From positions 1 through 27,034 of the IMG/VR virus record IMGVR_UViG_3300043409_001893: a stretch of DNA of 27,034 bases. The stretch is one strand, 5' to 3'. Both the position numbers and the translations under genes were made by a program. Of this stretch, positions 2,757-21,700 are shown one piece after another; position 1 is the first letter of the stretch, and the number at the start of each line of letters is the position of its first letter. The DNA comes from a virus. A model generated the notes under the pieces. It did no database searches. It saw only the letters and a program-made list of their open reading frames with translations, and was not told where the DNA came from.

Positions 2757-5700
2757 TTCCATTACTTTATCACCTGTACGGTATAGTCTAATTAATTGCG
2801 AAGTTCCTGGTAAAAACTGTCCTGCATGAATAAGCCATTTTGGATTACCTTTAAAAGGACCTGATTCAAACACTGTTTTATCTTCTGCATCTTCTCCGTA
2901 ATAGTTTCCTATATCTGTAAATACTGCATATGCGTCAGATACTAATTGAGCCATTGGTAAAGCTGTTTTAGTAAGCTTTTCAAATTCTAATGGATTACTA
3001 TAAAAACTTATATCAGTACGTAGTCTAATAGTTTGATTAATTAAGAAGTTGCTAATTGTATCATCTTCGTCATCATCATCTGCGCCTGCTAATCCTTTAA
3101 GTACCATTGCTATTCCCATAAGTGTTAACATGATATATAATTCGGTCATGTTTTTACGCATGTTAGCAGCGTCTGTAGCATTAAATTTATCTTCAAATTT
3201 TGTAGGTTTAAACATTAATTTACGAGCTAATTGTTTAAGAGTAAATAAAGTATCTGATATAGCATTATCATTAGTATGCATACCAAAGAGTCTGCCTCCT
3301 ATATAACCAATACCTGCCCCTACAGCAGTTCCGATTCCTGGTAAAAAAGCTGTCCCTACAGCAGCTCCTGTAGTAAGTAGTTGCCCTTTAGTATAACTTT
3401 TATATCTACCCTTGCGTACATAAGGTTCGTCAGATCCATACGATAAAGCATAGTCAGGTTTCTCAGATTCAAATCTATTAGCAAATCCTTCAAACATCCA
3501 AGTTCTAAATTGACTTAAAGCTCTACCTGCAATAGTTTCTTTTACTTGTAATTGATTATAGTAATCACCATGGTTCATCTCAATTACACGCTTAATCTTT
3601 TGAAACATTTTTATTTCATCAACTTCAGTAGTATAGCCTGCTTTAAGTTTACCTGTAGAAGGTTCGTAAGCATCCCACATTGTGACTGTTTTGCCACTAG
3701 GATCTTTAGCATCAAACTCCATCATAATAGCTACCATTACTGGAGCAATGTTGACGTACTCAGATCGTTCTTGTATAGAAAAAGGTCCAAATCTTTTAAG
3801 CTTACTTAAAGAAGATTTGTTAGACATGTCAAACATTTCTTTTGTAGAAGTAGAGTTTAAATCCCACTTATCCATCAGAGTTCTAATCTTAACTGCATTG
3901 CCGTTAGGATTACTAAGTAAAGCATTAAAACTTAAATTCCTTCCAATAGAATTAGTTACTAGCATGCTAGCTTTTCTAAAGTTCTTCATAGAGTAATTTT
4001 GCCCTCCTGAAGCTTCTATTAAATTAGAAATTAATCCAAAGCCCATGTTAGATACTCCTGAAAACACGTTATATCCTAGTCCTTTTAGAGTCATGTACTT
4101 TAATACAGCATCTCCTGAACCACTAAGCGTTTTATAACCACCAAGATTATCTAGTCTTTTTTGAAGAAATTCTTTGCTGTCTGCATCAGCTTCTTTAGCA
4201 ATTAATTCTTCGAGTTCCTTTTTTTCTTTTGTTTCTTGTGCAGTATACAATTTCTTTTTACCTACCCCTTCTACTTTTCTAGCACCTATGCCATAATAAG
4301 TAGAATCAAAGAAATAATCCCAAGCGGATTTTGCGTTGGCAAGACCTTGTGTATCTAGTACTTCTCCGTCTTTTTTCTGAGCACCCCCTGCTTTGTTAGT
4401 AACAATTTCTTTTTTGTTTTTAAACGCTTGATCGAGTAATCTAATCTGTGGTTCTATTAAAGATTTATGTTTATGTGCTAATACTTCCATAGTATAAGCT
4501 TTCATAATCTTTGTTACATCCCAAGATTTTTGTCTAGATAAATAATCTTTAGCTTCGTTTCTAAATACTTTAATTTGCTCAAGTGTTGCTGGTATTCCAG
4601 TTTCTTGCTTGTGTTTAATCTTTTTTTGTTTTACTATTTCTCTAACTTCTGAGTCAGTGTCGGAGATATATTTTACTTGAATATTTTTCTCAATTTCTTT
4701 TGTTGCAGGATCGACATCAGAATATACATTTGTAGCAAAGTCAGTAGTAGTTTGAAGTTGTTTCATTTTATCCCAAAAAGGAACAACACCCATCATCATG
4801 CCTTTTTCTGAAAATATATCCATCAAATTTTTTTCAATAGTAGGTAATACACCTACGCCCATCATTGGCATTTTTTGCTGTGGTAGCAAGTAACGCATTT
4901 GATTAAGAGTCTTCATTAAGAATTCGTGGTATTCTAATAAGTCAGAGTCTGCTTCAATTTTTGTAAAGTTTTTATCATACCATTTAGTAGCTGTTCCGCT
5001 AATAGATCTGCGAGGTACTTGAATTGCATATTCCCGAACTCCTTTTGGTGCGTAGAAGCCTCCACCTTCTTTTTTTCTACTTGAAGGATTTTCAGTCATA
5101 TCTATTCCCCAATAAGGAGAATTTTCTTTAAGCCATTCCATAAATAAAGCATCTTTTTCTGCTTCAGAAAGTCCTGGCTCCATTTGATAAGACTCATAAA
5201 TAGCTTGTCTAAGTACTTTAAATTTTTCTAACTTAGTTTGTGCTTGCTCTAAATAAAAACGATACCCTTTTTCACCAAGTTGAGCTTTTAAATCTGCAAT
5301 ATGTTTAGCTTTTTGTTCTTCAGTAAAAGTTACGCTGTCGTATATAAATTTATTAGGAAGAGTCCCGTCTTCTAATTGGCTATCGGGAAACAATGCTCTT
5401 ACATCAAAAGTAATTGTGTTAGCATTAATCCAATCAAAATACATTTTAATATCTGCTGGGTCTTTTTTTAACTTACCAGATATATCCTTTGCTCGAAAGG
5501 CATTATTCATTAGGGTATTTCTAGTATCAAAGAATTCTGTAGAAAATCTATGTACTACTCTACCTGTCTCTTTGCCATCTGCAGTTAACTGCTTTAAAAT
5601 ATTAAAATTACCCCCTGATTTTTTAAGAAACTTTGGAGTAATAGTGTCTAGTTTTTGCCATACTTCTGTAGCTTCTTGCTGTGCTAACATATTAGCTTCT

Positions 5701-7670
5701 TCAACGGCCAAGAATGCTGTTTGCATCATAGGATCGTTATGACGACTTAGGTTTAAAGTAAGAGCTCCTACTTTATTTACATCTGCTATATGCTTATAAA
5801 TATCTTCAGTAGTTAATCTGCCATCAGTGTATTGCTGAACAAAAGCTGTAACGTGTTCTTTTTTAACCGCAGTAAGTCTACCTTGTAAATCTTGTGCTTG
5901 TGATGCAATTGCTCTAAATTTAGAACGAATAGAAGGAATTACAGTACCGTCTGGCAAGATTACATCTTCTGATGTATTAAACTCATCTTCGTCTAGAATA
6001 ATATGCTCTTGAGCACTAGTAGAAAAGTCTCCTGCTTTAATCCATAAGTTTAATACGCGTTGCGCATAATAAGCATCGTCAGCACTAACAGCTGGTTTAG
6101 CTAGTAATTTTCTAATTTCACCAATTTGTTTATTACCAAACTCTAATACGTCTTCAAAAGAGTTAATGCTTTTAGATAAAATCACACGGCCTTCTGCTAT
6201 ATCGGATTCTTTTTTAAGCTTTTCAATTTTAGACATTATCTTAGTCACCTCATCACTGTTTTTGACGTTTTTAAGCAACTGTCGCTGACGCATGATTTCC
6301 ATGTTAATCTTTTTCTCCCTCTTCTTTTCTACTGCTTCTACTTGAGTATATGCACTTTCTAAGATTTCATCAACTCTATCATCAATAATAGAATTTAAAC
6401 CTTCATTTTGTTGAGCTCCCAGTACTTGTTTCGATACTTCAGCTTCTGCTGCTAAGTCTCTTTGGTATTCTTCAGATTGCATATACTCACGATACGCTGC
6501 TTCACTAGAATTAAATGCTTCAACAGATTGTTTTGTATCTTGCATAATGTTGCTAGCTACAGCAAAAGCTTGAGAGTAAAGAGTAGTTCCTTTTTCAAAG
6601 CCTAAAACATCTAAAATATAAGAAAAGATTTCTTCAAATAAATTATTAAATTCTTCTGAGTTAATTGGAGGAAGACTTTCTAATTTTTGAATAAAAGGTC
6701 CGTTAGTAAATAATGCTACAAAGAATTCGTCTATATTGTAATTAGCGTATTCTCCTGTATCTGTTTGATCATCGTATCCTCCTAATTCTTTTACGCTCTG
6801 CTCATAAAGTTTTTGAAATGCAGCAGTGAATTTACCATTTTGTCTTAATGCCTTATACGATAAAGCATGAAGAATTTCATGTACAATAATTTCTTCCTCA
6901 GTACCTCCAAAACCACCAAACTCAGGAATACGAATTCTATTATTTCCTATTTCGTACATCCCCAGTGATTTAATAGCTGTTCCAGGGGTAGGAATAGTTG
7001 TAGCGCCTTCTTCTAAAAAAATATTAACGTTATTTATATCAGCATAATCTAACAAGTGTTGGGCAATAGGAGCCATTACCTTGTTTTTATTTGCAATATT
7101 TTGCAACATTTCTTTAGTAGAGACTTGATTAGAACTACTAAAGTATTCTCTAGCTAAAAATGATTTTGTATAATTTATTTTTTTTACAAATCCTGCTTCT
7201 GTTGCATTTGAAAATAAATTTAATTGTTCACCTGGCGTACTAGTAGGTGGCTTTGGTTTAACAGATGCTACATTAATAGGATATATATTAGAAAAGCTAT
7301 CTGCGTCAAAGTCATTCACTGCATACAAAGGATCTCCTTTGGCAGCCATTCTTTGCCTTTGCTTTTCTACATTGACAGGAAGGTAGTTATATTTAAACTC
7401 TAATTTATACGTATTGCCATACGCTTTCTCCATTGTAAAGTAATGGGACGTACCGTTCTGCTCGTTGTATTTACGTAGTCTATGTGCCATTCCTGCATAG
7501 CTTTCTACCAAAGGCTTAAAAGCTATTGCACGTTTAATTTCTGTTGCAGTTTTTACATCTGGAATTCTATATCCATTTGCTACAAAAGCTAGGTTGGCTA
7601 AATCCTCTCCTGTTTGAGAGACTAACATTTTCCACTCCTTAGAGGATTTATTTGGACAAGCTAATGACAT
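2754..7670 (-). CDS. Giant virion-type protein with zincin motif and membrane-active C-terminus
   Basis: 1638 residues. An HExxH zinc-protease motif, H-E-I-L-H, sits at 264-268 in a hydrophobic helix context, and a G-G-F-G-G-T-E-E-E run precedes it, so the N-terminal third is probably a metalloprotease-like domain. The middle (about 420-1300) is highly charged and partly coiled coil. Near the C-terminus there is a Gly/Ala-rich stretch (about 1425-1460) typical of glycine-zipper membrane segments, then a hydrophobic helix (L-T-L-M-G-I-A-M-V-L, about 1510-1525) followed by D-D-D-D-E-D-D. The end, L-P-G-T-S-Q-L-I-R-L-Y-R-T-G, resembles ends of phage ejected internal proteins. It starts six bases after the stop of the RNA polymerase gene, with an A-rich leader, and is the last gene of the block. 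Likely an ejected virion protein involved in crossing the membrane; its protease activity is unproven. Confidence 0.85.
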   Translation of the reverse strand: MSLACPNKSSKEWKMLVSQTGEDLANLAFVANGYRIPDVKTATEIKRAIAFKPLVESYAGMAHRLRKYNEQNGTSHYFTMEKAYGNTYKLEFKYNYLPVNVEKQRQRMAAKGDPLYAVNDFDADSFSNIYPINVASVKPKPPTSTPGEQLNLFSNATEAGFVKKINYTKSFLAREYFSSSNQVSTKEMLQNIANKNKVMAPIAQHLLDYADINNVNIFLEEGATTIPTPGTAIKSLGMYEIGNNRIRIPEFGGFGGTEEEIIVHEILHALSYKALRQNGKFTAAFQKLYEQSVKELGGYDDQTDTGEYANYNIDEFFVALFTNGPFIQKLESLPPINSEEFNNLFEEIFSYILDVLGFEKGTTLYSQAFAVASNIMQDTKQSVEAFNSSEAAYREYMQSEEYQRDLAAEAEVSKQVLGAQQNEGLNSIIDDRVDEILESAYTQVEAVEKKREKKINMEIMRQRQLLKNVKNSDEVTKIMSKIEKLKKESDIAEGRVILSKSINSFEDVLEFGNKQIGEIRKLLAKPAVSADDAYYAQRVLNLWIKAGDFSTSAQEHIILDEDEFNTSEDVILPDGTVIPSIRSKFRAIASQAQDLQGRLTAVKKEHVTAFVQQYTDGRLTTEDIYKHIADVNKVGALTLNLSRHNDPMMQTAFLAVEEANMLAQQEATEVWQKLDTITPKFLKKSGGNFNILKQLTADGKETGRVVHRFSTEFFDTRNTLMNNAFRAKDISGKLKKDPADIKMYFDWINANTITFDVRALFPDSQLEDGTLPNKFIYDSVTFTEEQKAKHIADLKAQLGEKGYRFYLEQAQTKLEKFKVLRQAIYESYQMEPGLSEAEKDALFMEWLKENSPYWGIDMTENPSSRKKEGGGFYAPKGVREYAIQVPRRSISGTATKWYDKNFTKIEADSDLLEYHEFLMKTLNQMRYLLPQQKMPMMGVGVLPTIEKNLMDIFSEKGMMMGVVPFWDKMKQLQTTTDFATNVYSDVDPATKEIEKNIQVKYISDTDSEVREIVKQKKIKHKQETGIPATLEQIKVFRNEAKDYLSRQKSWDVTKIMKAYTMEVLAHKHKSLIEPQIRLLDQAFKNKKEIVTNKAGGAQKKDGEVLDTQGLANAKSAWDYFFDSTYYGIGARKVEGVGKKKLYTAQETKEKKELEELIAKEADADSKEFLQKRLDNLGGYKTLSGSGDAVLKYMTLKGLGYNVFSGVSNMGFGLISNLIEASGGQNYSMKNFRKASMLVTNSIGRNLSFNALLSNPNGNAVKIRTLMDKWDLNSTSTKEMFDMSNKSSLSKLKRFGPFSIQERSEYVNIAPVMVAIMMEFDAKDPSGKTVTMWDAYEPSTGKLKAGYTTEVDEIKMFQKIKRVIEMNHGDYYNQLQVKETIAGRALSQFRTWMFEGFANRFESEKPDYALSYGSDEPYVRKGRYKSYTKGQLLTTGAAVGTAFLPGIGTAVGAGIGYIGGRLFGMHTNDNAISDTLFTLKQLARKLMFKPTKFEDKFNATDAANMRKNMTELYIMLTLMGIAMVLKGLAGADDDDEDDTISNFLINQTIRLRTDISFYSNPLEFEKLTKTALPMAQLVSDAYAVFTDIGNYYGEDAEDKTVFESGPFKGNPKWLIHAGQFLPGTSQLIRLYRTGDKVME

Positions 7671-7676
7671 AGGTTT

Positions 7677-10600
7677 TTATTTACCGCAAATTAACAAATA
7701 GTTTTCGTAATCGTCCCTATTAATCACAGAAGTTTCTAATGAGTAGTCTGCCCCTTGGGCAGGTCCTGTGTAGTCATCTCCTGTAAAATCAGTACCTGGG
7801 GTCTTGTATTTATCAGGGTCAGAAAGTTTACTCATATCTAATCCCGTAGATTTAGGTTGTATAGGCCCAGCAGCTGTACCTGTTTTACCAGATAGTACCA
7901 CTGTTTTCTTAGAGCTTCTACTAAATCCTACATACTTTAACTGATTGATTAACTCAAAGTCAGGACTAGGAAAATTCCTTGCTATATCAATATTGTTTTC
8001 ATCTACGAAAGCATATGCGTAAGTACCTCCTTGAGACTTGTGAATAGTATGTGCATACGCATAATCTACGGATTTATCTTTTGCTTTGTAAGGTCCTAAA
8101 TTTTTCTTAGTAGCATTTGGATTCTTGTCTTTTAACACTTTCAATGCTTCGTCGGCTGGTAAAATGAATCCATTTATTTCGTAAACATCATCTGTTAAAT
8201 TATAGTTGCTACTAAATTGATAGTAATTTTTCCAAGCTTCTGCTCTATTATTTGAAGGAGCACTAATAGCTGCAGTTTTTAATCGTGCTAGCTCATGTAA
8301 ATAATCTTTGTCTACTAAATTCATGTCAGCAATAAACAAATCATTTTCTTTAGGCTTACCTGTCTTAGCATCTACTAGTTTAATTCTATATCCTCTTACT
8401 GCAAACGAAGCTCCTGAAGGACTTTTGATAACATGTTGATCTTGGTATTCAACTCCTACAACTTTAACATCCGCACCATTAGAAAAATCATAATCTTGAG
8501 TTGCCATATTGTAGAACAAGTTCTCATACATCATTAACAACTCTCCATCATAGAAAGGCTCTGCTCCAAATCCAAACATATTGGTTCGAATCATTTGATT
8601 TAAGTCTCTAACTCTTGCATTAGTATAAGCTAATGCTCTAGCATGATTAGGATTTTTATCAAAGTTTTCCATTGTAAACTCTGCTAACATTTCTTTAGTC
8701 CAATTGTCTTGACTATTAGTAAACTCAATACCTTCTCCTTTATCTGATAGCTTAGTAGCATGATCAAACATATCTACTCTACTTAAAGGATTATCTCTAA
8801 TAGGTTGTAGTACTTCTGCAGGCATTGGATTACCATCTGCAGTTCTCATTACTTGAGTTAACTTAGAAATATTTGTAGTTCTTCTAAATGCTTGTGATTT
8901 TTGAATTTGTTTTACAGGCTTTAATTGACCGTCATCACCGATAAATAATACCTTAGTTCCTTTTTTACTTGCAAGCTGTATAACTTCTTTGTACAAGGCA
9001 TCGTTAATCATAGATGCTTCGTCGATAACTAGAATACCAGCAGAAGGAACTTTGTCTTTATTTTTAGCAACAAAGATTTTATCTTGTAAATTAAAGTCTT
9101 CTAAATCTACTCCTGCTGCTAAGCCTAATACTTGTGCTAGTGTTCTAGCTTTCTCACCTGTAGCATCGGAAAGTACTTCTTTTGCTCTGTGAGTAGGACT
9201 ACAGATTACATAGTTCTTACGTTTCTTACTTAAGTACTGTAAAACAAACTTAGTGATAGTAGTCTTACCAGTACCAGCGTATCCTGCTAATGTGTAAGAG
9301 ATATCTACATCACTAACTTCTCCTTTAATAATTAAGTCAACAAAATTAGCTACATTTTGTAGAGCATCTAATTGTTGTTGATTAATTGTAATTTCTCCTG
9401 TATTAATAGTAACTCCATTAATATTTAAAGTATTAGAGATAGGGGCCGCAGGCGGTGCAGACGGCGGAGGTGTTTGGCTTTTTTGTGTTTTTGCTAAAAG
9501 ATCTTGTGCTAGTTGTAATGCTTCTTCTATTGTAGGAACATAATCAGCAACTACTCCGTCTCTATCTAATACATCATAAGTACCATCATCTCCTTGAATT
9601 ATATCAAATCCATTTTCAAAAAGCATTTGCTTTAATGCTGCTTGTTCAGGAGTAATAGTATTTGTTAGATTAGTTTCAGTAGAAACTAAATCAGAAAAAT
9701 ATTTATCAGTAGTAATAACCTTAGATTGATCTAGTCCTGATATAGTAGTGTCAAGATTTGACTTCCAAGATTCTAAATTACTTGTATTGTCTCCTCTTTC
9801 AGTTGCTCTTTTAACAAAAACCTCTTTACTAGTAGTAATTACTTTATCAAAATCTGATGCGTTTTCTTTAAGGAAAATCATATCAGATACTATTAACATT
9901 TTATTTTGTTCTTTTGCTACATTTTTAGCTAAAATCCAAACATCTCGCATAACTTCATTAAACTGTTCTTCGCTGTTAGTTTCTCTCCATTTATTTAAAC
10001 CAATACTATTCCGTTCATTAATTGGTAATCCTAATTTTTTAGCAACAAAAGGTTTAAAATCAGTATCAAAATCTAATACTTTATCAGAATTTTGTTCTCT
10101 AAAAGTAGTCTTTCCTAATCCAGGATGTCCCCAAATAATTCTATCAGTAGGTTCTAATTTAACTTGCAAAGTTGGTGCAACAGGAGCGGCTGGTTGACTA
10201 TCTCTAACTTCAAATTCTTTTGGTAAAATAATATTATCAGGCAATGTCTTGTTTACTAATAAAGATTTCATTTCTTCAATAGTAAATCCTGCCATGTTAG
10301 TACCAAATTTAGTAACTAAAAATTCTAATTCTGGGTGTGCGTTAGCTTCCGCGATTAATGCATTAATTGATTGTTCAATTCTGTTTAAAGGCACGCTTCG
10401 TTTAGCTCCTATTTGTAAGGCTGTTCCTGAAATGTTTGCTGCTTTAGTTACAATTCCAAAAGATTTTCCTTCTGTACCTTGCATTAATTTATCTACTATT
10501 CCATATTCTGCCCATTTACCTTTTGTTCCTATAGGAAGAGCAGTATAGTTGCTAGAAGTAGTTCCTCTTTGTGCTAAGCCCGCAGTACCTCCTCCGTGGC

Positions 10601-13600
10601 CTCCTGCAGTATTTGCTCCAAATACAAATACTTGGTTTGGTTTTAATGTTGTTATGTTTTCAGGAGTATATTGCCTTTGTCCTGATTGAACAGTAGGTAC
10701 TATAGGGTTTCTTTTTGTTTGTGGATCAGCATTAGGATCTTGCTTAAATGCATCTAGAATTTTATTTTTTCTTTCTTCAAACCTTACATTAGTTTCTGCT
10801 GCATTCTTTTTAAGGTTTACTACATCAACAGGTGCACCATTTACAATTTTGATATCATAGTAAGCTCCGTAGTATTTAAAGGATTCTATCTGTTGTCCCG
10901 CTAGCATTGTTTCTTGAGTAGCAGAAATTAAATCCATTGTTTCTTTGATAGTAGTAGCTAACGCAGAACCTGCAGGAATATCCATTCCTAAAGCCTGTAG
11001 CAACTCGCTAAGAACTTGCTTAATCTTATCCCAAATGCTTAAACCATTTTTATCAATAATATTCTTAAGATGGTTTTGGAAACCTTGGTCAGTAAGTGCC
11101 ATAGTAACAAACTCTGTGAGTTTCATAGCTCCGTACAATTTACTTATATTACCTTGTACGGTTTTTGCTTTACCTGTTTTAAAGTTATTGTAAGACTCAA
11201 TAAATTTATCTAACTCTTCTTTGCTACCAGACTCTTCTAAATAATTAACATATTGCTTTTGAAGTTCTTCTAACTTCTTAATAGCATTTATTTGTTTTTC
11301 GTTGAGATTATCTAACTTGCCGTCTAAATAGTTATAAATAGCTTCCCCTGTATGAGCATGTATTAACTCATGTGCTACTACTGATGCTAATCTATCTGCA
11401 GTAATATAAGGCAGACTATTTAAATTGATCTTTAAAGTATGAGAAGTATAGTTATAGGATCCTGATTCTTGGTAATTTTCACGAACATATTCAACAGTAA
11501 AGTCTTCAGGTAAACTTAACTCTCGCAATTGATCTAATAATAAATGATTTAAAGAGCTTATTCCTTCAGCATCTTGTAGTACATTAATTATATCATCGAG
11601 TGCACCTTTTGTTTTATTAAGTTCTTTGGCTAATACTAAATCCTTAGCCATTGTAGTAGGTGTAGGATTGTTAACTACATTAACATTAAACCCTTTAGTC
11701 GGTGTTACAGGATTACTAGTGACATTAAATCCTGGAGCAGTAATACTAGGTGCTCTTGTAGGAATTCTATTAGCAGCCTCTATAGGCGTTGGCATACTAG
11801 AGTCAGAGTTGTATTGAACAAAGCCGTAGCTGCCTACTAATACAGGCACTCTACGGTAAATTCTATCATTACTATCAAATTCATATAGTGCATATTTACC
11901 AGGCAATTTAGAATCATAGATGGACAAGAATTTAGTCTGTTCCATTATAGGTTCACCTGTAAATGGATCAGGTACTTCTATAAAATTAGCAGCTAACGCA
12001 GATTCGTTTAGAGTAAACTGATCAGGTATAACTGTATTCTGTCCTTCAAGGTTTGATAATGTAACTTTCTTTACTTTATCAGGATTATTTTGGAAGTATT
12101 GACGAGCAAATCTAGATGGAGCTGTATAAATAATACCATTATCATTTACATTACCATAGAACTCACTTTGGAAATCAAATATGATATTTCCCAAGTAATT
12201 TCCAAAGCCTATTGTTTTTAAGTAAGAGGTAGGAACATACTTTAAATATTGCTTAGAGCCTTGGTTTCCTCCTTCTAAGAATGCAGCTGCTACTAATTCT
12301 TGAGCAAGCATTCTGGAAGTATAAGTTACACCGTTATTAAAAGTCCCATCTAGTGTCAATGGATTTTTGATAACAAAGTTTTTGTCTAATAAATATAAGA
12401 ACCCATCATAGATATTTCTCTCATCAAAGTTTTCTGCAGCAGCTGCTTCAAAGTTAATTCTTGAGATAGTTCCGTTTGTATTTAAACTCATGTCGAGTTT
12501 ATTTAAGAAACCATTTTTCTGATACCAACTTTGTGTAGATATAGTACTAAGAATCTTAGCAAGACTCATGTTCTTGTTAGGGCCTTCTATTACATCAATA
12601 AATAATCTTCTTCTTTCTGCATCAGGATCGTCTCCAAATAAATTAGCATCTGTATTAGCATATAAGAAAGATCGCATATCTTCAAAGATATCACGACGCA
12701 TTTCTGTTTGCTTGTTTAAGCTTTTATCTGATGCATTTGGCATGTGCATAAAAACTTCTGATGTAATTGCAGCAAACCCTTCAGTATTATATGGAAAGAA
12801 TTTATTATAAAGAGTATCAGCAAATAAAGTTCCGTAGTAAGAGGCAAAGCCATTAATAGTAGTAGGCTTTTCTAAGAATCCGTTTTTGCTATATTCTCCC
12901 AATAAGTTACCTGAATTAAAAATAGCGGACTTTTCTAATTCATTAATTTGTTTAGCTTTTGCTTGTACTTCTAAAATAGACTTAGGCAAACCTTTAGAAG
13001 CTGTATTGATAGAAGATTGTAATTGTTTAATTTGCTTTCCTATTTCATTTAATCTAATAAATTTACTTAGGGCCCCTATCTGTTTCATATTAAAATCTAG
13101 AGTAATGTCTCCTTCTTTTAATGGTTTTAGAGTCTCTGTTTCTAAGTCTGCTATTAATTCTTCTCCTGAAGCAGACATCCATTCTTGTTGTTCTTCTTCT
13201 GGAAGACTTAAAAACTTACCTTCTGGATCATATTTTTTAAGTAGCTCTTCAAAAATATCTGCTTCTGCATTAGGATTATAAGCTACTAACGATGATTGAG
13301 CAGTGACTAGTTTATTAATAAACTCCCATATAATCTCTTGTGTAAGTAACCCTGCAATATCTTTTTCTTCAAAGCCTAACATAGTCATAGCTCTGATAGC
13401 GTCAAAAGTATTGGTATTAATATTTAATTTATCAAGAATTTGGAACTTCTCGTTATCCACTGCAGTAGACTGTAAGTTTTTAATAATAGTAGACTTTAAT
13501 TTTAGAGAGTCTTTTTCGTCTTCTGTTAAAGGTCTATTCTGTTCGTTAGCTGCTTTAATAAGCGCTTGTGATCTTAGAGTATATTTATTAGACAAGTCTC

Positions 13601-15218
13601 CTTTAGAAACAGCATCTCCAAATATCGACACTGGTGTATTAGCTTCTAAAATTTCTGCAGCACTTGGATATCTAGGCTCTTCAAAACTTCCCATCAAAGC
13701 TTCTTGTGCTTCTTCTGTTAGATTTAAAATAGTCAAATCTTTTCCTTGTGCTGCTACATTAAATGTAGAGTCAAGAGAGAATGAACCTACTCCGTCTTTA
13801 CCTGCCGTTGCATTAACATACTTGTTTCTTTGGTAAACATCTGAAAGAATAGTAGTAATACCAGAAACTAGGCCGCGAGAACGACGGATTGTATCTACTT
13901 CAGGCGCCAATGATTCAAACTCACCGTATGAATCTAGTCCTAAGTTAGAAGCTAAGATTTCTGGAGTAGTACTCTCTAAAATCTGTAGTCGAACATCTTG
14001 TATATTATTTTCACGAGATGCTTTGTAAGAGCGCTTAAGCACTGAAAGAATATCAAATGCGTTCTCTATTTGTGCAGCAATTTTAGAATTTAAAACTGAG
14101 TTAATTATACCTGTAGCTAAGTCTTCAATTCTTTGAGTTTCTGTAAAGTCTTCTTCTTCTTCTGGGCCTATTATCTTACGCTCAATATAAGTATCAATAA
14201 GATTTCTATCTTTCTTAGATAACTTTAATTCTTCTTTAAGAGCATTGATCTTATCTTTTTGTACTTCTATAGCAGCGTCTATTTTCTTTTTATCTGAAAG
14301 GAAATTAGTTTTAATCTGCCCAGACTCTGAGTCATAGAAGTGATTGTAGTTATAAGTATATAACTTATCGACGTCAAAGTCGGACCCCATTCTCTTCGTA
14401 AAGTCTCTAGGTGCTAGGATTAAGTCTCCCGATGTCTCAGGTAAGAACCCTACTATTTCTATAGAGGCCATCTGGTTACGTCCTCCTGTTGGAATACGAT
14501 AGCCAAATAGTTTAAGAAGTTTTGCAGGGATTTTATCTGTGTCCATCATGATTCTACCATCAGGACCTTTAACAGTAAAGTCTTCTAATTTTAAAATCTT
14601 TCCTTGTTCATCTCTAAATTTAAAAGGAATCATGACTTGGTCAGGTAAAATCGTACCTGTGGCCTCATCATATCTCATTGGTAACAATCCTTTCTCAGCA
14701 TTAAAACTATCAGAGAAAACAATTCCTGACTTTCTTAGTTCACCTGCTGCTTTGTCGCCTTCTTTAATTTTAAATCCTTCCTGAGAACCTAATACATAAG
14801 AGTTACCAGGAGCTTTTGTCTTAACAACTTTCTTACTTACAATAGATGTAAGTAAACTCTCAAACTTTTTTGCATGCGGGGATGCCCATAATGGGATCTT
14901 AAAGTCTGTAAGTTCTTCGTTAATAGTTCCATCATCATTTTTGACAATGTTTAACTCTAATGCAGATAGCATATTGGGCGGATACCCTTCACGAGTTTTT
15001 ACTTCGTTGGCTAATATGTCTGCTAGCTTTCTAGCAGGCACAGTTGTTCTTTCAACGAGTTGCTTGGTTGTCTTTAACAACTTAGCAGGATCTGTTTTAA
15101 ATCCTGCTACTTGTATTTTATTAGAAGATATTAAATTATCTAATAGACCATTATTTAAAATCTCTTTTAGTTGGCCTTCGGTTACCCAATTACCATTTAC
15201 GAAATACTCACAAGCCAT
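7677..15218 (-). CDS. Virion RNA polymerase catalytic barrel fused to zincin, macro-like, kinase and helicase domains
   Basis: 2513 residues. Residues about 90-300 fit the catalytic double-psi beta-barrel of crAss-like virion RNA polymerase: Y-R-I-P-T-G-G-R-N-Q-M, V-G-F-L-P, then D280-F-D282-V-D284 in the frame G-S-D-F-D-V-D-K-L-Y. The three Asp should hold the catalytic magnesium. About 300-1130 is probably the rest of the polymerase core. After a Pro/Thr linker comes a zincin motif, H-E-L-I-H (1283-1287). Then come a macro-like A1S_2505-type domain (about 1525-1670, F-V-F-G-A-N with G-G-H-G-G-G), a P-loop kinase-like domain (Walker A G-H-P-G-L-G-K-T, 1697-1704), and after a Pro-rich linker a superfamily 1 helicase (Walker A G-Y-A-G-T-G-K-T, 1979-1986; D-E-A-S at 2066; H-K-S-Q-G near 2395). 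The first barrel seems to be in the 3031-residue protein. Probably packaged and ejected. Confidence 0.9.
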   Translation of the reverse strand: MACEYFVNGNWVTEGQLKEILNNGLLDNLISSNKIQVAGFKTDPAKLLKTTKQLVERTTVPARKLADILANEVKTREGYPPNMLSALELNIVKNDDGTINEELTDFKIPLWASPHAKKFESLLTSIVSKKVVKTKAPGNSYVLGSQEGFKIKEGDKAAGELRKSGIVFSDSFNAEKGLLPMRYDEATGTILPDQVMIPFKFRDEQGKILKLEDFTVKGPDGRIMMDTDKIPAKLLKLFGYRIPTGGRNQMASIEIVGFLPETSGDLILAPRDFTKRMGSDFDVDKLYTYNYNHFYDSESGQIKTNFLSDKKKIDAAIEVQKDKINALKEELKLSKKDRNLIDTYIERKIIGPEEEEDFTETQRIEDLATGIINSVLNSKIAAQIENAFDILSVLKRSYKASRENNIQDVRLQILESTTPEILASNLGLDSYGEFESLAPEVDTIRRSRGLVSGITTILSDVYQRNKYVNATAGKDGVGSFSLDSTFNVAAQGKDLTILNLTEEAQEALMGSFEEPRYPSAAEILEANTPVSIFGDAVSKGDLSNKYTLRSQALIKAANEQNRPLTEDEKDSLKLKSTIIKNLQSTAVDNEKFQILDKLNINTNTFDAIRAMTMLGFEEKDIAGLLTQEIIWEFINKLVTAQSSLVAYNPNAEADIFEELLKKYDPEGKFLSLPEEEQQEWMSASGEELIADLETETLKPLKEGDITLDFNMKQIGALSKFIRLNEIGKQIKQLQSSINTASKGLPKSILEVQAKAKQINELEKSAIFNSGNLLGEYSKNGFLEKPTTINGFASYYGTLFADTLYNKFFPYNTEGFAAITSEVFMHMPNASDKSLNKQTEMRRDIFEDMRSFLYANTDANLFGDDPDAERRRLFIDVIEGPNKNMSLAKILSTISTQSWYQKNGFLNKLDMSLNTNGTISRINFEAAAAENFDERNIYDGFLYLLDKNFVIKNPLTLDGTFNNGVTYTSRMLAQELVAAAFLEGGNQGSKQYLKYVPTSYLKTIGFGNYLGNIIFDFQSEFYGNVNDNGIIYTAPSRFARQYFQNNPDKVKKVTLSNLEGQNTVIPDQFTLNESALAANFIEVPDPFTGEPIMEQTKFLSIYDSKLPGKYALYEFDSNDRIYRRVPVLVGSYGFVQYNSDSSMPTPIEAANRIPTRAPSITAPGFNVTSNPVTPTKGFNVNVVNNPTPTTMAKDLVLAKELNKTKGALDDIINVLQDAEGISSLNHLLLDQLRELSLPEDFTVEYVRENYQESGSYNYTSHTLKINLNSLPYITADRLASVVAHELIHAHTGEAIYNYLDGKLDNLNEKQINAIKKLEELQKQYVNYLEESGSKEELDKFIESYNNFKTGKAKTVQGNISKLYGAMKLTEFVTMALTDQGFQNHLKNIIDKNGLSIWDKIKQVLSELLQALGMDIPAGSALATTIKETMDLISATQETMLAGQQIESFKYYGAYYDIKIVNGAPVDVVNLKKNAAETNVRFEERKNKILDAFKQDPNADPQTKRNPIVPTVQSGQRQYTPENITTLKPNQVFVFGANTAGGHGGGTAGLAQRGTTSSNYTALPIGTKGKWAEYGIVDKLMQGTEGKSFGIVTKAANISGTALQIGAKRSVPLNRIEQSINALIAEANAHPELEFLVTKFGTNMAGFTIEEMKSLLVNKTLPDNIILPKEFEVRDSQPAAPVAPTLQVKLEPTDRIIWGHPGLGKTTFREQNSDKVLDFDTDFKPFVAKKLGLPINERNSIGLNKWRETNSEEQFNEVMRDVWILAKNVAKEQNKMLIVSDMIFLKENASDFDKVITTSKEVFVKRATERGDNTSNLESWKSNLDTTISGLDQSKVITTDKYFSDLVSTETNLTNTITPEQAALKQMLFENGFDIIQGDDGTYDVLDRDGVVADYVPTIEEALQLAQDLLAKTQKSQTPPPSAPPAAPISNTLNINGVTINTGEITINQQQLDALQNVANFVDLIIKGEVSDVDISYTLAGYAGTGKTTITKFVLQYLSKKRKNYVICSPTHRAKEVLSDATGEKARTLAQVLGLAAGVDLEDFNLQDKIFVAKNKDKVPSAGILVIDEASMINDALYKEVIQLASKKGTKVLFIGDDGQLKPVKQIQKSQAFRRTTNISKLTQVMRTADGNPMPAEVLQPIRDNPLSRVDMFDHATKLSDKGEGIEFTNSQDNWTKEMLAEFTMENFDKNPNHARALAYTNARVRDLNQMIRTNMFGFGAEPFYDGELLMMYENLFYNMATQDYDFSNGADVKVVGVEYQDQHVIKSPSGASFAVRGYRIKLVDAKTGKPKENDLFIADMNLVDKDYLHELARLKTAAISAPSNNRAEAWKNYYQFSSNYNLTDDVYEINGFILPADEALKVLKDKNPNATKKNLGPYKAKDKSVDYAYAHTIHKSQGGTYAYAFVDENNIDIARNFPSPDFELINQLKYVGFSRSSKKTVVLSGKTGTAAGPIQPKSTGLDMSKLSDPDKYKTPGTDFTGDDYTGPAQGADYSLETSVINRDDYENYLLICGK
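14367..14381 (-). other. RNA polymerase active-site motif DFDVD
   Basis: Codons for D280-F-D-V-D284. In multisubunit polymerases the equivalent is DFDGD, and in phi14:2 gp66 I recall DFDID. The 40 residues upstream (R-I-P-T, then V-G-F-L-P, then a hydrophobic strand) follow the same order as the beta-prime barrel. Confidence 0.9.
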
Positions 15219-15229
15219 ATTATATAATT

Positions 15230-15730
15230 TTATCCTTTGTTCTCACTGCGCTCTAGTAAGTCAGCGTCAAACACTAACATATTATCAGTAAGCTTAAGTC
15301 TATTAATTAGATCTCCGTATTCTCCTACTGCTGCTACCTGGAAATTAATAAAGTCTTGTAGTAAAATTACGGTTTTTCTTGATATATCAGATACACAACA
15401 TACGCGCTCATATTCAGCAAGCAAGTCTGCTTCCATTTTATAAGCCATTTCTAATGCATCACCAATGCTTGCTGTATCAGAAGTAACAGCCATCAAACTT
15501 GTTACTTCTAACTCGCAATTTAAATCATTCATAAACGCAGCAAGCTTAGTATAATGCGTGCGCTCATCAAGAGATTCTTTTAAAAAGAAAGCTTCGGCGC
15601 CAAAGTAACCCAAAGACTTCATACGGTTTGTCAAATGCTGATATACATGAGAAGCAGTAAGTTCAAATGTTCCCAATTTATTAAGAGCTTTAATCTCTAC
15701 TTCGGTAAGTAATTTTTCCATTATTAACAT
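15230..15730 (-). CDS. Ferritin with H-type ferroxidase site
   Basis: 166 residues, close to the length of bacterial ferritins, predicted to be a four-helix bundle with a fifth short helix. Ferroxidase ligands fall where expected: E23 in helix A (F-E-L-T-A-S-H-V-Y), E56 and H59 in helix B (D-E-R-T-H-Y-T-K-L), E100 in helix C, and Q131 with A134 in Q-V-A-A-V-G-E-Y-G-D. The last set resembles animal H-ferritin (Q-V-K-A-I-K-E-L-G-D) more than E. coli FtnA, whose extra Glu ligands are Ala here. It should therefore oxidise and store iron, or protect DNA from peroxide chemistry. The first ATG overlaps the stop of the 3031-residue gene (ATGTTAA); the ATG at codon 4 starts just after that stop and would give 163 residues. 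It lies between the two putative polymerase halves. Confidence 0.88.
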   Translation of the reverse strand: MLIMEKLLTEVEIKALNKLGTFELTASHVYQHLTNRMKSLGYFGAEAFFLKESLDERTHYTKLAAFMNDLNCELEVTSLMAVTSDTASIGDALEMAYKMEADLLAEYERVCCVSDISRKTVILLQDFINFQVAAVGEYGDLINRLKLTDNMLVFDADLLERSENKG

Positions 15731-18700
15731 TTTTTAAATTCTTCATTTTCTTTTTGAGTCTCGTCAAAGAAGATGTTCATCTTAGCAGCAGCGATAGCTT
15801 TGATTATATCATCAAAGTTCTTGTTGATAAAGTTAACTCTTTCTAAGGTATCTTCCCCTACTTCATCTGCTAAATCTTCTTGTAGAGATACTTTCTGTAT
15901 AGCAGAAGCAGTTTTAAGTTTTTCAGCAAACTCATTTACTTTATCAAACACTGTAGTCTCAGGCATCACTGCTAAGGTTTCAATGTTTGGTGTATTAATA
16001 ATAGTGTCTCTGAGGCCTAATTTTTCTGCTAGTTTCTCTTGATTGTACTTAAAAATCTCTTCGTAGTTTTGGTTGTATACACTTAGCAAATCTTCAGCAG
16101 TTACATCTTTAGAAATTCTTAGGCCTAGCAAATCGCCAAACAACAAGCTTCGTTCTTGTGTACCAATATTGACAGAGTCTTTTTCACGCTTATAAGGAAC
16201 GTCTTGTTGAATTCTAAAATTAGATCTTGGAAGTAATAAAGCATTTGCCTTAGTAATATTGATATTATCTAATACATCTCCTTTATCATCAAACACAGGG
16301 ACAGCTTTTTGAACAGCTCCTACTTTGTTTGCTGTGTTAAACGATGCTCTCACAAATGCAGGAGTACCATCACTCAGTACTTTAGATCCTATTTCTGCTT
16401 CAAACTTCTCAACTGCTTGACGGATCTTATCAATCTGCATTCCTTGAGTTAATTGTGGAAGCAATGGGAAACTAGAAGATTTAATATAGACGCGTCGATC
16501 TAGATTGTCAGCTACGTCTAAAACATTTCCTACATAAACTGGTTTGATAGGCTGCATTACTAATCCTAGTTCTTCATAACTAAGAGTATTTGCTGGACTA
16601 AAATCCCCTTGTGATTGTGCAGTAAGCTTTCTAGTAAGCATATCAACTTGAGCAGAAGTTAGTCTGCCCATTTGTTTCATTACGTACAAGTGCTCTTTCC
16701 AAGTAGTATATTCCTGTGCATCGGAACCTTCTATTTTAGAGAAGTTTTTTCCAAAGCCTTTTACAACTTTTTCAAAATATTCTTTTTGCGCAGTGTCTCT
16801 TACATTCTCACTATTGATTTCTTTATCTTCTAAGAAAACCTGATAGTATTTATTGTCTTGGCTATTGGCTAATTCTAATCCTGGTGCAATGTTTCCTGCA
16901 AGACGTTTACCCATATTAGTAAAAGTCTCTTCTAGATTTAATCTAAGAACTTGCTCATCTGTTAAAGTCTCTTCTGCTACATCTAAACTCTTAGCTAATT
17001 GCTGTTTAGATTTAAACTTAGCATACATAGCAGGGTCACCTATGAAAAGCTTCATTGCTTCTGCGTTAGCGATTAAGTAATTATATACAAAATCTCTAGC
17101 CGCATATTTAAGCTTATCTTCGCCAACACCTTCTGTCATGCTGGCCATGTACTCTTTATCTAAAAAAGCAAACTGATCAACTACTCTACCACTTGCATCT
17201 TTAACAGTTTGTCCTATACCTAATGATCGCCAGTCTTTGAGCTTTTCTTCTATCATAGTATTAAACATACTTGATAAATGCTCTTTTACTGCTTCTTTAA
17301 CTTCAGGACGATTGACAGTATCGTTTTTATCTTTAACTATGTCCAAGTAAGACACTTCTTTATCGTCAAGAATAATCATTAACTCATTAAGACTAGGCAC
17401 TAAGTAAAAATAATTAGGCTCAAATCCTTTTATATTAGTAGACTGCTTACCTCTGATACGAGCTACCTCTGGAGTAACCATTGCTTTTACTAGTAATTCT
17501 AAATTACCATCTGTTAATTTACCGTCTTCAAATTTTACTTCTCTAGCTAATGCTTGAATAATAGTCATTGTAGACTTATCAGACATTGTTGGGTGGAAGA
17601 AAGCTACTTTTCTACGTCGTTCTTTATTAAGAATTACTTTTGATGTATTAAAGAATAATCCTAGCTTAACTACTTCGTGTTCTGCAGGAGTAAGTTTGTT
17701 GAGCTTTCTGTTATCTTGAGTAGGTGAAAACTTTTTCTTTAAAGCTTCTAATGATAAGTAACCGCTGTTTAGAGTATTTCTAGTAACATTTCCTAACTCT
17801 CCTTCGTCTGTAAGTTCTTCTAACCAAATACTATCTCGGGTAAAAGAGATTTCTTTTAAGCCGTTTATTAAATCACTGTTGATAAATGTTTTTGTCTCAG
17901 GATCGTAAGCAGTTAAATCTCTTACACGATTTACAAAGAAGTTATTATTACCATATGAGTAAACAGTTTTACCCCCTGATTGAAAAGAATTGCTGTGAAT
18001 ATTTAAAACATTTGCCGCATCTACGCGGGCAAGTGCTTTAACTGCAGAGTCGCTTAGTAACTCAGCGTCTTCTACTATTACATCACTATCAGCTTTTAAT
18101 TGTAATTGTTTAGCCAACACCGTCACTAGTCCCGAACCGTGAGTAAATAATTCTGCCCAAGTTCTGCGCCCCTGGTTATTAAATTTACCTTCTCTTAGGT
18201 CTGTGTAAGTTTGATCTGTGATAACAATTCCAAAGTTACCTAACCAAATAGCTAGATCTTCATTAGTAACTTTAGTTGGGTCTTTAGCAAACTCTGCAGC
18301 TTGGTTTCTTAATGTTTTAGCTACTTCTTTATTAAATACATAATCTCCGTTATCATTTACATCAATAAGATTACTTTGTCTTTCTACTCCCTTAAGATTA
18401 GAATCCCAAATAGCACGTAGTCTTTGCTCTGTAGCAGTAGCATTACTTGACCATTTTTGCAGAGAGTATCTACCGTTTTTATCTCTACTCCACATTACAA
18501 ATACCATATCAATATGGTGTTTAGCCATGTCAGATACAAACTCGTTCTGAATTCTTTCAGGAGCTATTTCTAATGCATCAATTACAGAACGTAACCATGG
18601 GAATTTATTCACATGTAGTTCTAAAACGTTCATCATTAGATCATAATTTGCAGGTTTGTTAGCAAGTATCTCGTGACAAGTGTCTGTTACGGTATCATAC

Positions 18701-21700
18701 GATAACATCTCTGGCCAACCTAATGGATTATTGATAGGGCCGTTTTCGTCTTGTGCTTGAATACCTGTAAAGAATTTCTTTAAGTCTGCAGAAGAAGTTG
18801 CTTTGTAACTTACACTAAATGACCAGTCGTCCGTGTAAACTACTTTCTCTAAACCACCTGATACTTCATCAGACTCATCAAGATTTAAATCTTCTGCTAC
18901 ACTGCCTATAGTAAACAATGCCATATGCTGATTAGTTAATCTCTTAACTTTCTCAAACTGATCTATAATGGCCCCCATTTTAGCAGCATTGTTCTTTAAA
19001 CCTAATTCTTCGTAAGCTGCTTTTAATTGTTTAAATGCTTCTAAATGTTTATCAAATATTGGTCGAGTCTTTACTGTCTTCTTTCCTCCAACTTCTTTAG
19101 AAGCTAGAGTCTCTTTCATAATAGTAGAAGCTATGAAAGCGATTAAAGATGATTGAGTATCTGAACTAATACCTCTGATTACTAAATTATCTACTTCTGT
19201 TCTTTGCTCTTCTACTTGCTCAGCGGTCATAGGTATAATCGACTCATCTACTTGATCGTCGCCTATAGGATTAGAATCTTGTGTATTACCGTTAACAATA
19301 ACCTTAGTACCGTTAGCTAAAGTAATAGTTCTACTATTTTTTGCTCTTTCTTTAGATAATTCTACTGCCTTTTTAAAACTTGCCAAAGCTTCTTCTACTG
19401 AAGAAAATTCATTAGGATTAGGACCTACTAACTCTTTTTCGCCAATAGCTCCTTTTTCAATGTTATCTACATATGCTTCTAACTGATCTATAGTCAATTC
19501 ATTTCTTAAAATATCTTCAGCAAAAGCATCTATTCTAGCTTGTCCTGTAAGTTCTTCTACTTCTTCTTCAGGCGCCTCTGTAGGTTCTTGTGTAGTAGCT
19601 TTACTACTTACATAAATATTTCTTAAAATTCCATTATCAGAATCAAAAGGTTCTTCGTAAACACCATTTTCATCTATATTATCAATTTGCTTTTCTTGTC
19701 CATCTTCGGTTTTATAAATAATACTATAATTAAAACCATTATCAGAAAAAATTTGTACAATCTTTCCTTTAGAATTTGCAATTTTACGAGCAGCAGTAAC
19801 AATAGTTATTTCGTCTCCTACATTCCAACCTGCAGGATTTGCAGGATCTTCTTCAGTTGTAGTTTCTGAAGCAGGTAATAAAGGAGTTATTAGTTTATCG
19901 TACTTGTCGTATATCTCGTTGTACTTAGCCAATACATCTTCTGTCATCCAAGTTTTGTCTATTTTACCATCTTTTCTATAGTCTTCTAAAGTAGGAATAG
20001 CTTGAGCTAACGCTGCTTGTTCTTGTGCTCTTAACTCTGCTACTTTAGCTGCATTAGCTTCTGCAGTTGAGGTAGTATTAACAGGACTTACTGTTTTTAA
20101 TCCTTGGGTCTCTAATATATTAGCATGATCAAATCCAAACTGAGCTTTGTCAATAGAGTTTAATTCTGACACAGGAATCCATCTAGCTTCTTTAGCATCG
20201 TCTTTACCTGCTACATCTGTAGCAATATCAAAGTCTGCAGGTAAATCAATTCTAAATACAGTAGCAGAAGTCCAAGCTTCTGTACTATTTCTTGGATCTC
20301 TTTCCTGACTATCAAATACACCGACTTGTGGCATAGGAAGATTCATTGAAGACTCTGTTAAGTCTAATCCTGTTTCTTCTTTAAGTTCTCTTATCGCAGC
20401 TTGCTTTGCTGTTTCTTTTCCTTGTGTCCAAGCAGTTCCTGGTCGAGCATTTGTATCATGAAATCCTCCAGGAAAAGCAAGTTTACCCGCTTCTGCCTGA
20501 GCAGTATCAGAACGTCTGATTAATAAAACTTGCTGCTCACCATTAACAGTACGAGTAACAATAAGGTCTACTGTTGGATTGGCTCCAGTGTAGCGTAATG
20601 GGGAAGTAGTAGTAGGTCTTGGTGTAGGGCTTACTGTAGGGCTTACTGCAGGGGGTCTTTGCTGTGCGGCAGTTTGCTTAGGCATTGCTCCTGCAAATGC
20701 TGTATCAAAAGTAATAGTAGGTTGGATAGTATAAACCCATTTAGGTTTAGCATCTGTACCTATGTTTACTGATAAGATATTAGTCTGATGTGATTCTTTA
20801 ATTTGATCTGCATAAGAAATAGTACGTGACTCTCCTTCTGGAGTAAGAATAATTGTACATCTTCTGCCTAATTGCAATCTGTCTTTGTCAGCATTAGAAA
20901 GTATCTGCTTGTTAAGTAATATAGGTAATAGTTTATTTCTAAGCTTAGTTCTATTCTCTTGCTTTCCTGTATTAGTTCTCTCAAAGTTTTGAGAAATCTG
21001 ATGTGCATAATATGGAGTACCGTCTCTATGGTTACCTGCTTTAACACCTGGTCGACCAAACTCTATACCTGTTGCAGTTACTGCAATTAAAGGTCTCTCA
21101 GATTTAAGAGTACTCAATGATCCTCCTTGAGACATTAAGATATTATTTAAACCTTCAGCTTTATCGGTGTTATATAAATAAATAAACTGAGATAAATACT
21201 GTGATAGACCTGCAGTAGTAGTAATATCAATGCCGCTGAGTCCAATTGCTTTTACAATAGGATTCTCAGTGTCGTTACTTAAGTGTGCTTCAATTGCATA
21301 TACTATAGAGTTAGCTACCTCTTCTGTGATAGGTTTCTTTTGTAAAGGAATAGGCATGTAATTGTTAGGACCTACTTTAACAACAGCATATAGTCTACCT
21401 GACTGTACGTTAACAGGCAACATTGATTGGTTCTTGCCTAAAATCATAGACACATCTCCACCTAATTCTACAACCCCGTTACGACCAACTCCTAAAATTA
21501 AATTAGGATCTGGCATAGCTTCGTTTATATTTAAAGAACGTCCGTCAAATGTTTTAAACAGTTTACCAAAACTCTTATAAGTAACTTTGCTAGTTACTCT
21601 ACCTGACTTAACAATCTTTTCTCTAATCTTAAGGTTAAAGGCTTTGTTCTGAGCAACTCCTTCAGGACCGCTGCTAAGGTTCTCACTACGATACCATGCA

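Follow-up and report, generated by a model that had tools for sequence, protein, structure and literature searches.

The virion RNA polymerase encoded in the window, i.e., the whole 27,034-nt stretch of DNA that we analysed, is divided between two genes that are separated by a ferritin gene. A cassette carrying this ferritin has quite probably interrupted a formerly single-chain polymerase between its two barrels, with the halves made apart and rebuilt in trans.

Gene Organization of the Locus

The window is the virus record fragment IMGVR_UViG_3300043409_001893. Three ORFs, all on the minus strand, lie where a sequence-only reading had placed them: P0002 (15724–24819, 3031 aa), the ferritin ORF (15230–15730, 166 aa), and P0001 (7677–15218, 2513 aa). 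By ORF structure and homology, P0002 comprises a gp67-like N-terminal part, a polymerase region preceding DPBB-B (residues 1989–2690, positions 16750–18855, minus strand) that is homologous to part of phi14:2 gp66, the DPBB-B region itself (residues 2691–2938, 16006–16749, minus strand), assigned by a profile match, and a C-terminal tail of about 93 aa ending in KKC (15727–16005, minus strand). The DPBB-B region holds K2780 (in KSSSFPLLP) and K2832 (in NKVG), both invariant across 20 diverse sequences. P0001 opens with an N-terminal head (residues 1–58, 15045–15218, minus strand; MACEYFVNGNWVTEGQLKEILNNGLLDNL...) and continues with the connector (clamp element) and DPBB-A (residues 59–328, 14235–15044, minus strand), assigned by homology; the catalytic DFDVD motif occupies residues 280–284 (14367–14381, minus strand), the position given for it earlier. 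Beyond the polymerase C-terminal half, P0001 carries a SprT-like protease motif, a P-loop domain, and a Dda-like helicase, and ends in LLICGK. The neighbouring P0004 (2754–7670, minus strand; 1638 aa, start MSLACPNK) is a gp65-like RNA polymerase-associated protein.

The junctions of −7 and +11 bases were found again as a 7-base overlap and an 11-base gap. The likely true start of the ferritin is the ATG at 15721 (MEKLL), the second Met, at which the gene begins in several related loci; with this start, the first gap would be +2.

Several features outside the polymerase core were also observed. P0002 contains a NUDIX hydrolase domain within residues 1425–1566 (20122–20547, minus strand; Pfam, 52.6 bits). 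In P0001, a SprT-like HExxH motif, a PHROG 2072 domain, the P-loop domain, and the Dda-like helicase lie at 7878–11500 (minus strand); the helicase is absent from the split relatives L024, L025, L026, and L029. The near-alike contigs L024 and L025 have P0001 homologues of 1664 and 1509 aa, respectively, a natural length change past the polymerase core. In L013, the P0002 homologue is cut again (1890 + 1087 aa; L013:6731–6735), with no terminal cysteines at that point, which may be due to an error in sequencing or to a break that is recent.

Homology of the Two Halves to phi14:2 gp66

Both halves can be related to a solved structure. A profile of P0002 residues 2685–2940 and relatives matches PDB entry 6vr4_A at 964–1185 (E = 4.7e-24), and one of P0001 residues 57–330 and relatives matches 6vr4_A at 1324–1408 (E = 1.8e-13), with DFDVD aligned on DFDID; the wider profile A7 found 6VR4, and profile A5, built from class A (split) sequences only, missed it. 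PHROG family 16227 (4401 aa) spans the two ORFs unbroken, since P0002 residues 2693–2937 correspond to profile positions 2750–2991 and P0001 residues 62–324 to 3003–3265.

These matches agree with the earlier statement that phi14:2 gp66 is one chain with both barrels. They also place the partner barrel in the 3031-residue protein as proposed; the barrel does not end that protein, however, and about 93 further residues follow it. The counter-case raised at the same time, a complete second barrel within the 2513-residue protein, was sought, and no second DPBB-B copy was found in P0001. We base the barrel fold on sequence homology to the solved gp66, since the AlphaFold models of the two barrel segments (13-row alignments; mean pLDDT 65 and 46) were too poor to judge either fold or interface; a Foldseek search with the better, low-confidence model gave no match (E above 1).

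From this homology, the locus appears to encode a crAss-like virion RNA polymerase belonging to the Fpv1-related group. It shares with phi14:2 gp66 (PDB 6VR4) and crAss001 gp50 the order DPBB-B, connector, DPBB-A, the DxDxD motif, and a gp65-like neighbour. In those two proteins, both barrels are in one polypeptide, whereas here DPBB-B is in P0002 and DPBB-A in P0001, parted by the ferritin cassette. Judging by domain order and alignment, the break would fall just past DPBB-B, either ahead of the connector or where the connector starts; this point appears to correspond to the boundary between beta and beta' in cellular enzymes.

Unsplit Relatives

The alignment of the locus among its relatives, suggested in the sequence-only reading, brought out close relatives that are unsplit, with a short linker and no ferritin, and 15 contigs in which split and ferritin occur together. 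In Fpv1, L053, L054, and L057/58, a single ORF encodes both barrels, joined at the break point by a linker of roughly 11–20 residues. Among named relatives, gp33 of Flavobacterium phage Fpv1 (4401 aa; PHROG 16227), a phage filed as Fipvunavirus with no order assigned, comes closest in sequence to the polymerase part in both halves. This protein has the same domain order as the window but is unsplit and without ferritin: P0002 homology stops at record base 43337 and P0001 homology restarts at 43374, 12 residues on in the same ORF. At the same point L053 reads LGLLTYDEDGNPVSRKSIPIEKLQEIL; in the window, LGL is followed by tail, ferritin, head, and then TTVPARKLADIL.

The full set with both barrels in one ORF and no adjoining ferritin consists of Fpv1, L053, L054, L057/58, L060, L061, L063–L066, L068, and L071–L074. 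No ferritin was found elsewhere in the 88-kb L053 record or in the other unsplit records tested.

Tail, Ferritin, and Head as One Cassette

Compared with unsplit homologues, P0002 has about 93 additional residues past DPBB-B, and P0001 has about 58 ahead of the connector. Among ferritin-bearing loci, the final ~48 residues of the tail and the initial ~36 residues of the head are conserved, and models of tail and head match ferritin loci only (head: 24/24). The tail is known only upstream of this ferritin and the head only downstream of it, and both are missing from unsplit relatives. Because tail and head occur solely beside this ferritin, the inserted unit appears to be an exchangeable three-part cassette of about 0.9 kb rather than a lone ferritin gene. 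The claim of an insertion into a polymerase gene is thus supported in part: it fits the unsplit relatives, in which a short linker without ferritin occupies the very point of the break, and what went in was not the ferritin alone, tail and head having been inserted too.

The small ORF is a ferritin, scoring 61.9 bits with Pfam PF00210, whose curated cut-off is 24.5. Six positions, which we take to be the ferroxidase ligands from general knowledge of H ferritin, are invariant in nine sequences (E19, Y26, E52, H55, E96, and Q127 in the numbering of alignment A1), and the ferroxidase positions of the phage ferritin line up with those of solved ferritins. Tail, ferritin, head, and DPBB-A are under purifying selection, with dN/dS of about 0.03–0.24 in most pairs and a single higher value of 0.47 for the head between L013 and the window; with synonymous sites close to saturation, these figures are only approximate in absolute terms.

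This constraint bears on whether the break could be mended in expression, by an intron, a split intein, a frameshift, or stop readthrough, such that the polymerase stays one chain. Introns and inteins are abundant in crass-like phages, and polymerase ORFs of the Zeta group are broken by stops and frameshifts (PMC7886860). Here, however, a complete ferritin gene with its own start and stop intervenes, tail and head are constrained at the protein level in most pairs, the stop and start are conserved, and there is no Rfam match within 13500–17500, so we consider repair of this kind highly improbable. As separate candidates, a group I intron or other known RNA was not found by Rfam in 13500–17500, and a split intein was rejected: the tail does not start with Cys, the head does not end in His-Asn, and a whole gene lies between them.

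Distribution among Metagenome Contigs

IMG/VR was covered by two ferritin scans and one polymerase scan. Class A comprises 15 contigs, the window included, in which the polymerase is split and a ferritin lies in every break. The same layout in 15 contigs excludes chance or assembly error, and an assembly artefact was rejected on this ground. Class B comprises 10 contigs of a distant lineage that carry the same tail–ferritin–head cassette directly upstream of the polymerase ORF; both barrels are in one ORF of about 3000 aa in all 8 contigs showing both, the other two of the 10 (L012 and L018) stopping before the barrels. No homology of the class B upstream ORFs to gp67 or to the P0002 N-terminus was detected. 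All 25 ferritin copies share a single location next to the virion polymerase gene, and each copy examined is followed by the head.

The ferritin gave no match in 50,697 GenBank phage records, and no close relatives of it were found in 84,980 bacterial and archaeal genomes, so that no donor was identified. The open-access literature yielded no description of a ferritin in such a location.

A different order of events can also be considered, in which an ordinary shift of ORF boundaries first broke the polymerase at the linker and the ferritin moved into the gap later, in the way that it came to lie at a different ORF boundary in the second lineage. The class B ferritin does occupy an ordinary ORF boundary, gene boundaries in the transcription block of crAss-like phages vary (PMC7886860), and the class B contigs L010 and L012 resemble class A mainly in the ferritin coding part, with different upstream tails. 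Against it, no split without ferritin was seen among loci with both barrels, the polymerase-only scan included, and tail and head are unique to ferritin loci, which means that break and ferritin share their ends. We hold a break preceding the ferritin to be distinctly unlikely and prefer interruption by the cassette.

Exchange and Repeated Change

Between L011 (class A) and L010 (class B), the ferritin is 87.5% identical and the polymerase core 19%; between the sisters L011 and L019, the corresponding values are 65% and 75%. DNA similarity between L011 and L010 begins sharply at the ferritin ATG. The ferritin tree intermixes both lineages, and a single class A clade is rejected (AU test, p = 4.8e-8). 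By these comparisons, the cassette or its ferritin passes horizontally between lineages.

On the polymerase tree (23 rows), the split state requires at least three changes, all forced by well supported branches, and a tree constrained to keep the split rows in a single clade is rejected (p = 3e-40). The unsplit L054 is the sister of the split L055, and L053 is placed next to the main group of split rows. Three changes are also required on the P4 tree, where L053 is outside the main group. Trees of near-junction columns give two changes and those of distal columns four, at low support, which hints that the flanks may travel with the cassette through recombination.

The linker of L054 (TDSGNIPV) resembles that of the outgroup L057 (IENGRIPV), and for the L054 allele a never-inserted or recombined origin would fit better than exact excision. 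The insertion is polymorphic among close relatives, with split and unsplit alleles interspersed on the tree. As to the direction of change, the counts alone agree equally with repeated insertion and with a single insertion that was later lost or replaced. A single insertion of the ferritin by itself was rejected, since tail and head belong to the ferritin and the trees demand several changes or exchange.

Terminal Cysteines in the Gene Block

The new ends of the polymerase halves share a feature with other proteins of the gene block. At internal block junctions, Cys occurs within eight residues of the N-terminal end in 68 of 71 cases, compared with 5 of 85 other ORFs, and within eight residues of the C-terminal end in 57 of 61, compared with 14 of 103 (Fisher values 4e-34 and 1e-25; the sequences are related, so independence is overstated, and the internal-junction grouping was defined after the pattern was seen). 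At the outer ends of the block, the first protein has no Cys at its start and the last none at its end (0/20). The pattern covers phi14:2, DAC15, cr8_1, cr118_1, and Fpv1, and in crAss001 the C-terminal Cys is slightly more internal. Conserved sites in the window are at 15727–15729, 15210–15212, 7683–7690, and 7656–7658 (minus strand). The class A split carries the terminal Cys pair in 14/14 on each side, and no such Cys occurs in the linkers of the unsplit L053, L054, and L057. The terminal cysteines may serve in disulfide pairing, in metal binding, or as a packaging signal.

A gp66-like protein of L062 (1905–9677) opens with a CPNKNTQEWK head that is otherwise typical of gp65-like proteins, which suggests that N-terminal heads may be swapped between block proteins.

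The ferritin itself has no terminal Cys (0/23). This absence, together with the intact ferroxidase residues, favours a ferritin that is a passenger, an ordinary oxidative-stress or iron gene passed from phage to phage and structurally unconnected to the polymerase, tail and head serving only as packaging or translation signals. Dps genes of the same superfamily occur in gut phages and were proposed to serve stress tolerance (PMC8008677). Genes of the ferritin superfamily, Dps among them, are likewise found in phages of Bacteroidetes-type hosts (Gratiaviridae and others), whereas here a PF00210 ferritin is fixed at one position by the virion polymerase gene; that 25 of 25 copies share this spot, with the head after each one examined, is unusual for a free passenger. 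Within the cassette explanation, we put the chances of a passenger ferritin at about even.

Model of the Split Polymerase

The proposed ancestor would be one giant polypeptide running from a gp67-like part through the polymerase N-terminal region and DPBB-B to the connector and DPBB-A, followed in several relatives by a helicase. The cassette, i.e., a tail with a stop, the ferritin, and a head with a start, would have taken over the short linker between DPBB-B and the connector, each half gaining a new end. The halves would then be translated separately from one operon, co-packaged, and ejected, and the active site would arise where DPBB-B of one half meets DPBB-A of the other. Assembly in trans is what we infer, of necessity, from the split anatomy. 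The polymerase-associated proteins of crAss001 are virion cargo and would cross constrictions of less than 50 Å partly unfolded (PMC10172136), so two shorter chains need be no handicap.

In this scheme, tail and head with their terminal cysteines may link neighbouring proteins or label them for packaging, and the ferritin may act as a separate ferroxidase or iron-binding protein produced alongside the polymerase. It seems to us rather unlikely that the cassette parts form a docking device, with the polymerase halves bridged physically either by the ferritin or by the pair of tail and head, which bear the terminal cysteines. If it were true, an exchangeable element would cut a phage gene and yet supply the means of holding the pieces, and the ferritin would possibly be packaged beside the polymerase.

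Split polymerases of PhiKZ-like jumbo phages and the cyanobacterial split beta' (PMC7598289) likewise form a two-barrel enzyme from fragments encoded apart. Their extra splits lie inside beta or beta' (PMC7598289), whereas here the beta–beta' fusion would be reversed at the boundary by an exchangeable cassette.

Crass-like polymerases are a leading case of a fused beta–beta' enzyme, and at this locus the fusion appears to be undone at the beta/beta' boundary. The unsplit sister alleles would provide a natural experiment on a two-barrel polymerase in one piece and in two, which bears on how fragments stay together without alpha or omega subunits, a question also asked of the jumbo-phage enzymes (PMC7598289). 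The terminal cysteines at internal junctions suggest a testable general rule for linking or packaging giant cargo proteins.
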